64,000 nucleotides of DNA, taken from NCBI GenBank assembly GCA_023701365.1, contig JAMPXD010000004.1:1-64000 (forward strand), written 5' to 3'. Numbering within the stretch: the first letter of the stretch is position 1; every line of letters begins with the position of its first letter. A program made the position numbers and the translations under genes. The notes beneath the pieces are model-generated. The model worked only from the letters and a program-made list of their open reading frames with translations. It was not told the origin of the DNA and did no database searches. The stretch comes from Geobacteraceae bacterium. Its GTDB lineage: Bacteria > Desulfobacterota > Desulfuromonadia > Geobacterales > Geobacteraceae. Of the stretch, positions 46,095-50,641 are shown in pieces.

Positions 46095-46787
46095 ATGAAA
46101 ACACGAAAAAGCAAGGACCTCTTATTCGAACAGGTGGCCCGGGTGGGGAAGGCGGTTGCCAGCCCGAAGCGGCTGGAACTGCTCGACCTCCTCTCTCAAG
46201 GCGAGAAGGCGGTGGAAACGCTGGCGAGCGACGCAGCCATCGATGTCAAGCTGGTCAGCGCGCATCTGAAGGTGCTCAAGGAGGCGCGGCTGGTCGAGGC
46301 GCGACGTGAAGGGCGTTTTATCATCTACCGTCTGAGCGGCAGCGACATCGTCAGCCTCTGGCTCAACCTCAGGTCCGTGGCGGAGAAACACCTCGCGGAA
46401 CTGCGGCTGGCCCTGGACCTGATGTCAGCGGCCCCGGAACGGCTGACCGCCGAATCCAGGGCGAGCCTGCTGGAGAAGGCGCGGCAGGGAGAGGTCATCG
46501 TTATCGACGTCCGCCCCGAGGTGGAATACCTCGCAGGCCATCTCCCCTTCGCCCGCTCCATGCCGCTTGCCGAGATCGAGCGGCGGCTGGCCGAACTCCC
46601 CCCCGGCAAGGAAATCGTCGCCTACTGCCGGGGCCCCTTCTGCCTCATGTCCGAAGAGGCGGCCGGGCTGTTGCGCGAGAAGGGATTCCGGGCGCGGAAG
46701 ATTACCGACGGGGTCGCCGAATGGGCGGCAGAAGGGCTGCCCATCGAGGCATACGGTACTCGTATCCGTCATGCACGCCAACAATAA
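46095..46787 (+). CDS. ArsR-family regulator fused to a rhodanese domain
   Basis: This 230-residue protein has an N-terminal winged helix (about 15-90) and a C-terminal rhodanese domain (about 125-218) with an active-site loop starting at Cys178 (CRGPFC, second Cys183). The rhodanese Cys could sense persulfide, thiosulfate or arsenic. No ribosome-binding site precedes the ATG. The last codons overlap, in another frame, a cysteine-desulfurase remnant, so the C-terminal tail was probably altered by the deletion. Confidence 0.9.
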   Translation: MKTRKSKDLLFEQVARVGKAVASPKRLELLDLLSQGEKAVETLASDAAIDVKLVSAHLKVLKEARLVEARREGRFIIYRLSGSDIVSLWLNLRSVAEKHLAELRLALDLMSAAPERLTAESRASLLEKARQGEVIVIDVRPEVEYLAGHLPFARSMPLAEIERRLAELPPGKEIVAYCRGPFCLMSEEAAGLLREKGFRARKITDGVAEWAAEGLPIEAYGTRIRHARQQ

Positions 46788-46935
46788 AATAGGCACCCTC
46801 CAACCTGTGGCCGAGATCGCTTCCATCGTGAAAGCACACGGGGCGTTGCTGACGACCGAAGAAGAGATCGACAGGGCGGCGAAGGCGCTGGCGGCGGCCT
46901 TCGCGAGTGCCCGTGAATCCAAAAAAGAGCTGTGA
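46753..46935 (+). pseudogene. cysteine desulfurase (NifS/IscS) remnant with internal deletion
   Basis: The frame reads TVLVSVMHANNKIGTLQPVAEI and on to HGALL, a typical mid-protein stretch of NifS/IscS enzymes, then jumps directly to TTEEEIDRAAKALAAAF, the typical C-terminal end. The PLP Lys and active-site Cys region (about 230 residues) are missing, as is the N terminus. It is joined to the 3' end of the ArsR-rhodanese gene. Confidence 0.75.
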
Positions 46936-46969: not shown

Positions 46970-48136
46970 ATGAAGTTTACGCCGTTGAAGTTTCAGATAC
47001 CCCTGGCAGCGGGGGGAATCGCCCTGATGGCCTTCAATTATCTCCAGTTTGCAGTGCCCCATGGGAAGGGGTTGATAAAACTGTCGGACCTGCCATTGGC
47101 CGCAATGTCTACGGGCCAAACCGGCCTGTATCTCCTCCTGATCATGATCATGCTGGCATTCAGCGTAATAAATCTGGGCTCCACGGCTGTTTATCTGAAA
47201 CAACTCATCCAATGGGTTGCCAACAAGACCGAATACCGGGATTTCATCAATAGTCCGCCAACAAAGAACATAGCCGTCTTTGTGCCCGTCGCTTCCCTGT
47301 CCATGACCGCGAATGTGGTTCTGGCTCCCCTGGCCTTTTTTATCCCGCAGTTATCGTCCAATCTGCAGGCGCTGATGTTGCCCGGCCTGATATTTTTCGG
47401 GATTCTCTGGCTGATAATTTTCCGGCTCGAATTCAGGGTTCTCAAAACCTGGCTGAGCCATCCCCTTGATGTGACCCAACTGAACTTCATCTGGCTGCTC
47501 GACGTTTTTGCCTTCGGTCTGGTGAGCCTGACCGGGACCGGCATTGCCGCCCTTGCCGGCAGCGAGGAGATCGCATCGACAGCGGCCTTCGCGTCGTTGT
47601 TTACCCTGAGTCTCGGTTGTTTCCTGCTCGTCACCAAGCTCGCCTATCTGATCTACCTCCAGATAAAGGCCCACGAGTTGCCGGGAAAGGCGATTCTGCC
47701 GGCGTTTTTTCTGGTGATCCCCATCACCTGTCTGTACGGATACAGTTTCTACAGGATCACGCTCTATGTGCAGAAGTATTTTTCCTTTGACATGAGGATG
47801 CTATCGTTCTTCTTCATCAATTTTTCTTATGTCATTACGGTCGGCTGGGGGATCTTTTGCCTCTATCTGCTCAGCAATTACTTTAAAAGGGATTTTCTGA
47901 AGAGCGACTTTTATCCGACCCAGTGGGGTCTGGTTTGAGCGCTGGTCGGCTCCCAAGTTTTGGGAGCGAATGTTTACGGGAATTATTATCCCAGTCAGTT
48001 GCTGTCGGCTGTGAACTATGCGAGTACGGTACTTGCGGCGATTATCTATATCTTTGTCTTCTCCAAATTCTATCAGGCGGCAAGGAAAGACAGGTTGCCC
48101 AGGCAAGTGGCGCCGGTTGTTGAGACAGGCGTATAG
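46970..48136 (+). CDS. probable selenoprotein: TDT/SLAC1-like membrane transporter with in-frame UGA (Sec323)
   Basis: This is a polytopic membrane protein with about ten helices. The frame reaches TGA at 47936 after WGLV, then continues in the same frame for 65 sense codons (ALVGSQVLGANVYGNYYP..., another hydrophobic helix, AAIIYIFVF) to TAG at 48134. Reading UGA as selenocysteine gives 388 residues with a complete last helix. A SECIS-like hairpin starts ten bases after the UGA. AAGGAGAAG precedes the ATG. I recall a (seleno)protein family named TsoY with such a layout, but cannot verify it. A recent nonsense mutation is the alternative. Confidence 0.75.
47936..47967 (+). promoter_or_regulatory. 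in-frame UGA with candidate bacterial SECIS hairpin
   Basis: Eighteen bases after the UGA lies a three-base loop G-T-T (47957-47959) closed by a perfect 8-bp stem GCTCCCAA/TTGGGAGC (47949-47967). The loop begins with G and the UGA-to-loop distance is within the range known for bacterial SECIS elements. Confidence 0.7.
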
Positions 48137-49960: not shown

Positions 49961-50581
49961 TTAGACCGAATCCGAATAATACTTGCAGGCCGGCCCATTG
50001 CAAAGCTTGTTTTTCGCCGTGAAGGGGCAGGATATCCGTTTTTGCGGGGCTTCCAGGGTAACCCCCATCACCCTGTTGAAGTAGTTGGTTGCCAGCTCCA
50101 GCACGCTGTAGACGCTCCTCTTGCAGCATCGGTTCCCGGAGTTGTTGGCGATGTTCAGCATCGCCTCGCCGGTCAGGGCGTGGGCCTGGGCGCGACCTGC
50201 TGCGTGCTCGGCGTTGATGGTGTTTCCGTTTATGAGGCTTACCGCGATGCCGCAGGCGATGGCGGCGGCATCCGCCCCGAACCCGGCGCAGAAGCCGCCG
50301 GGGATGCCATTCCCCTTCTTGATCGCCTCGTCCAGCTTTTCGGGAGAAACTTCCCCCCCGGCGTTTCGGTAGGCGGCAACGAGGACGGCGGCCACCAGAG
50401 CGTGATGGACATGCCCGGCCACCGGGAATCCGGGATGGCCCATGATCTCCTGGGCCATGTTCAACGGGCTTTTCGAGGCGGTGTTGAGGCAGTAGGCTCT
50501 GATGACCTCCTGGAGCTCAAGCACCGCGCAGTGCTGACAGATAGCATTGTCCGACGGATTGTGACAGATGATGCAGTTCAT
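49961..50581 (-). CDS. Cys-rich protein of the DUF5714 type
   Basis: This 206-residue soluble protein starts with a CIICHNPSDNAICQHC zinc- or Fe-S-like motif. A helical middle part follows (GHVHHALVAAVLVAAY, ...NRCCKRSVYSVLELA) and a C-terminal Cys group (CPFTAKNKLCNGPAC). The pattern fits what I know as DUF5714, found mainly in anaerobes and methanogens; function unknown. The ATG at 50581 follows GGAGG. It sits between an ArsR-family gene and the membrane ferredoxin, so it may form a redox unit with the latter. Confidence 0.7.
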   Translation of the reverse strand: MNCIICHNPSDNAICQHCAVLELQEVIRAYCLNTASKSPLNMAQEIMGHPGFPVAGHVHHALVAAVLVAAYRNAGGEVSPEKLDEAIKKGNGIPGGFCAGFGADAAAIACGIAVSLINGNTINAEHAAGRAQAHALTGEAMLNIANNSGNRCCKRSVYSVLELATNYFNRVMGVTLEAPQKRISCPFTAKNKLCNGPACKYYSDSV

Positions 50582-50641
50582 GCTTCCTCCAAACGAATTA
50601 TTTCTGCGAGTGGGCAACGGCATTTTTTCGCTCTCCACTGG

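Follow-up and report, generated by a model that had tools for sequence, protein, structure and literature searches.

Positions 46970..48136 on the plus strand of the window (the whole 64,000-nucleotide stretch of DNA that was analysed) almost certainly encode selenoprotein TsoY, a 388-residue protein in which an in-frame UGA is decoded as selenocysteine (Sec), as judged by sequence comparison. The TsoY family is already known, and the window gene adds one more member to it. The frame starts at ATG 46970, with a Shine-Dalgarno-like AAGGAG immediately 5′, and its 388 codons contain a single in-frame TGA, at 47936..47938 (codon 323, plus strand); 3′ of this codon, 65 sense codons follow in the same frame up to a TAG at 48134..48136, which is included in the gene coordinates. 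A preliminary description of this DNA had proposed a selenoprotein here, and every coordinate that it gave for the frame, the TGA, the 65 codons, the TAG and a downstream hairpin was exact on recheck. Ordinary gene callers do end the protein at the UGA, as that description had also maintained, and standard annotation would cut TsoY by 66 residues, with the loss of two transmembrane helices.

The name TsoY, which the preliminary description had tentatively offered, is the right one. With the TGA translated as Sec, the product matches the NCBIfam profile NF047643 ("selenoprotein TsoY") from end to end (profile 1-366 of 366) at 578 bits, against a cut-off of 250, and the broader NF047644 at 355 bits, against a cut-off of 150; the match to Pfam SLAC1 (PF03595) covers residues 2-365 and scores 37.0 bits, with a gathering score of 27.9. 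The whole equivalog profile, the Sec position, the length and the motif all agree with NF047643, and no substantive difference separates the window gene from this family, of which it is an ordinary member. The Sec motif of the product is U-A-L-V, which fits UxxV; in PMC13188914, TsoY is listed as a prokaryotic selenoprotein with the motif UxxV and is credited to Haft and Tolstoy (2025). Other transporter-related selenoproteins, linked to sulfur or metals, include YeeE/YedE, the SO_0444 Cu/Zn exporter and SaoP (PMC13188914); like TsoY, these are predicted membrane-transport selenoproteins, but they are listed as separate families. The Cys forms of the TsoY family (seleno)protein profile NF047644 (L028, L038, L046) belong to the same family as the window gene and are of similar length, but carry Cys in place of Sec at the aligned position, and in L028 the SECIS stem is not kept.

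The homologs compared were gathered from 16 loci in GTDB genomes and supplemented by searches of whole genomes. In 28 distinct genes besides that of the window, TGA occupies the position aligned with codon 323; these genes come from Deltaproteobacteria, Firmicutes and Actinomycetota and include two broken copies (L033, L059). The position of this codon, the frame and the stem are all conserved down to 38% identity. The other relatives found have Cys: Trichococcus (L028) shows TGC at this codon, and no selB in its genome exceeds the cut-off; the remote NF047644 members that lack an in-frame stop (L038, L046 and L043, a fragment) place Cys at the aligned position within an ICP motif. The alignment recommended in the preliminary description thus recovered both Cys and Sec opposite residue 323, and its reading of the UGA as Sec323 stands.

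Identity and pN are similar on either side of the UGA across the homologs; against L019, identity is 77% before and 76% after this codon, and dN/dS is 0.14 and 0.16, respectively. Because identity and non-synonymous divergence change so little across the UGA, these comparisons indicate that the C-terminal part of TsoY is translated and under purifying selection. That the UGA is a true stop, with a 322-residue protein and a downstream frame that is untranslated or decayed, is very improbable. The behaviour of gene callers would agree with a stop, and chance alone would leave 65 codons open a few percent of the time (our own estimate, at 61/64 per codon), but the protein encoded downstream is conserved in homologs under purifying selection, non-Sec relatives have Cys in place of the TGA, and the genome holds the full Sec machinery. 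In addition, a stop here would, according to the structural model described below, remove TM10 entirely and the greater part of TM9; the lost stretch (47939..48133, plus strand) encodes the remainder of TM9, then TM10 and the tail. Homologs do not end at WGLV, conservation continues past the UGA and the Sec machinery is present, so that none of the three circumstances named in the preliminary description as speaking against a selenoprotein was encountered.

The SECIS hairpin (47949..47967, plus strand) begins ten bases after the TGA and consists of a perfect 8-bp stem, with the 5′ arm GCTCCCAA at 47949-47956, the loop GTT at 47957-47959 and the 3′ arm TTGGGAGC at 47960-47967; 18 nt separate the TGA from the loop, and all of these features were reproduced as originally reported. 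Published criteria for bacterial SECIS elements are a loop of 3-9 nt with a G in its first two positions, a stem of 4-16 bp, a spacing of 16-37 nt and an MFE of no more than -7.5 kcal/mol (PMC13188914). The hairpin agrees with all four, having a 3-nt GUU loop with G first, a stem of 8 bp, a spacing of 18 nt and a predicted folding energy of -14.3 to -16.3 kcal/mol, and the SECIS check suggested beforehand was in this way positive.

The folding energy of this single hairpin is unexceptional when compared with shuffled sequences (z -1.2), and a scan of Rfam at gathering scores gave no match, which carries no weight for or against a SECIS element. Nucleotide conservation alone is likewise no proof of such an element, because Sec and Cys forms both conserve the peptide GSQVLG encoded at the hairpin; therefore, pairing was tested by resampling synonymous codons according to the codon usage of the gene concerned. 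The 27 Sec genes keep a mean of 6.8 of the 7 tested pairs, against 4.4 expected, and every gene lies above its own expectation (Wilcoxon p 1.5e-8, an optimistic value in that the sequences are related). The Cys gene (L028) keeps 3 of 7 pairs, with 4.2 expected. Among ten sequences, 80 of 80 pair cells are intact (100% pairing) and two pairs have changed on both sides, whereas sliding the partner by one to three columns gave a pairing of at most 64%. Weaker stems occur in a few divergent Sec genes (L040-L042, L047). It is the comparative evidence of codon position, frame and stem, and not the folding energy, that lifts this predicted hairpin above chance.

The window belongs to a draft genome of 3.79 Mb, which comprises 283 contigs and is 90% complete. 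The genes selA, selB, selC and selD, for which the preliminary description had advised a search, are all present: profile matches are 621 bits for selA, 371 bits for a full-length selB, 78 bits for tRNA-Sec (selC), which has the anticodon TCA (UCA), and 371 bits for selD (G000:C167:7214-8134, L036). Because selD carries one in-frame TGA, its product is probably itself a selenoprotein. SelB and tRNA-Sec would decode UGA 323 as selenocysteine under the direction of the hairpin at 47949-47967. Among the homolog genomes, 11 of 14 have selB over the cut-off, and the remaining three are Trichococcus (Cys form), a Desulfovibrio MAG (L026) and a Desulfosporosinus MAG (broken tsoY). The tsoY of L026 is of the Sec type; the genome is probably incomplete, but it may be an exception. 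A sequencing or assembly error that turned TGC or TGT (Cys) into TGA might be imagined in so fragmented a draft, but it is hardly conceivable given that 28 distinct genes of independent genomes carry the identical TGA and that the SECIS stem is maintained.

The AlphaFold2 model of TsoY, built from a 26-row alignment, has a pLDDT of 89 and ten long helices. In the PDB, it matches SLAC1 and TehA best (probability 1.00, TMt up to 0.77), at a sequence identity of 11-16%, and the TsoY profile has no match among PDB sequences. The ten-helix fold is thus predicted to be common to TsoY and the SLAC1/TehA/TDT anion channels (PF03595; PDB 7en0, 3m71). In the model, Sec323 lies within helix 316-338 (TM9), which is followed by TM10 at 343-375.

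The gate region was aligned to a 22-sequence SLAC1-family profile using hhalign and hmmalign. Both local and global hhalign place W319 opposite TehA W258 and Sec323 opposite TehA F262, and hmmalign places the Sec323 position opposite F262 in 21 of the 26 rows, with a gap there in the other five. When hhalign was run against only two TehA sequences, a meaningless local match resulted; the alignment became consistent once the 22 SLAC1-family sequences were used. TehA F262, equivalent to SLAC1 F450, is the gate residue that blocks the pore, and its change to Ala raises conductance (PMC10645844). From the alignments and the model, Sec323 appears to sit at this gate-phenylalanine position, by distant homology. 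In the channels and in TsoY alike, a tryptophan precedes the gate position by four residues; however, the gate Phe on TM9, which is typical of the fold without defining it, is Sec or Cys in TsoY, and sequence identity is very low. In the literature consulted, which included PMC13188914 and PMC10645844, no statement was found that Sec occupies the SLAC1/TehA gate position.

Upstream of tsoY, an ArsR-type repressor fused to a rhodanese domain (46095..46787, plus strand; PF01022, PF00581) is its likely regulator, and such a fusion is also found near tsoY in three loci that belong to distant groups (L025, L028, L034). The regulator gene and tsoY are separated by the remnant of a cysteine desulfurase gene (46777..46932, plus strand), 52 codons long, which was recognized by its similarity to the intact desulfurase encoded two genes upstream of the L019 tsoY (46% identity over 28 residues) and has no Pfam match of its own. 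The remnant holds the motif ANNKIGTLQPVAEI, followed by what is apparently the extreme C-terminal part. A deletion apparently left it behind and may have changed the end of the ArsR-rhodanese gene as well.

In the 15 loci compared, which come from different phyla, the neighbours of tsoY that recur are ArsR-family regulators (9 loci), DsrE (6), SelD (5), LysR regulators (4), cysteine desulfurase (2, plus the remnant here) and CGGC proteins (2). DsrE is directly upstream of tsoY in five loci, and SelD is close in four and distant in one. The common denominator of these neighbours is persulfide/selenide handling, and the genomic context favours the thiol- or selenol-dependent transporter that the preliminary description had envisaged.

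TsoY is predicted to be a membrane protein with ten helices in the SLAC1/TehA (TDT) fold. As a tentative reading that falls short of an even chance, it may be a channel for anions, or an exporter, that handles small sulfur/selenium species (sulfite, selenite, hydroselenide and the like), with its expression coupled to sensing of the ArsR/rhodanese type; arsenic or another thiol-reactive anion is a possible alternative substrate. Somewhat less likely still is the further proposal that Sec323 occupies the site of the gate phenylalanine in the pore, where its selenol would replace the aromatic plug and serve as a redox- or substrate-binding gate. An anion channel with a Sec gate, the pore of which is opened or closed by selenol oxidation or by binding of sulfur, selenium or arsenic, is on balance unlikely, though conceivable. 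TsoY is remote from characterised channels, both in sequence and in the identity of its fold matches. The Sec-gate alignment, in combination with the SelD, DsrE and rhodanese neighbours, provides a concrete channel hypothesis for an uncharacterised family, and natural Cys variants offer controls.

TsoY might instead be a resistance transporter for metalloids (arsenite/thioarsenate) or of the tellurite type, and not for sulfur or selenium, with Sec as a metalloid ligand; roughly one chance in a few may be allowed for this. The TehA fold, the ArsR-family regulators in 9 of the 15 loci, and arsC- and ACR3-like frames at 40.5-42.1 kb of the window (assigned by reading) would be consistent with such a role. 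However, the recurrent partners DsrE, rhodanese, SelD and cysteine desulfurase are sulfur/selenium genes, and across the loci compared no recurrence of ars genes next to tsoY was seen. In addition, some ArsR-family proteins, for example BigR, sense sulfite or persulfide, although the ArsR regulators of the window give weak scores against BigR.

Sec in proteins is usually catalytic, which would lead one to think of TsoY as a membrane thiol/selenol redox enzyme or a sulfur carrier built on a channel-like scaffold, with no channel at all. Sulfur-transfer proteins as neighbours are compatible with this, and C254 in TM7, which is invariant in the homolog alignment, could be the partner thiol. Nonetheless, Sec323 lies inside TM9, where a known channel fold has its pore gate, and the translated product has no CxxU or UxxC motif around Sec323; we therefore consider an enzyme or carrier improbable.

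The gene was found in 1 of 48 genomes of its own taxonomic family, with no second tsoY among them, in 5 of 395 genomes of its own phylum and in 13 of 399 of the phylum of L022; a plasmid search returned no tsoY homolog. Because this distribution is patchy, it suggests horizontal transfer. Two genomes of the window's phylum, G205 (L038 and L042) and G416 (L043 and L040), each combine a remote Cys-type with a Sec-type TsoY.

Elsewhere in the window, a DUF5714 protein (173 bits) is encoded beside an ArsR gene, at 49964-50638 on the minus strand; it is similar to a part of MbdU, the metal-binding double selenoprotein (87.5 bits, cut-off 600), and its gene contains no in-frame UGA and stops at a TAA. 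Finally, Mesobacillus selenatarsenatis SF-1 has two tsoY copies (L025, L027) in near-identical neighbourhoods of the order LysR, SelD, DsrE, tsoY, DsrE, which diverge downstream into ArsR-rhodanese in one and a methyltransferase with a cysteine desulfurase in the other.
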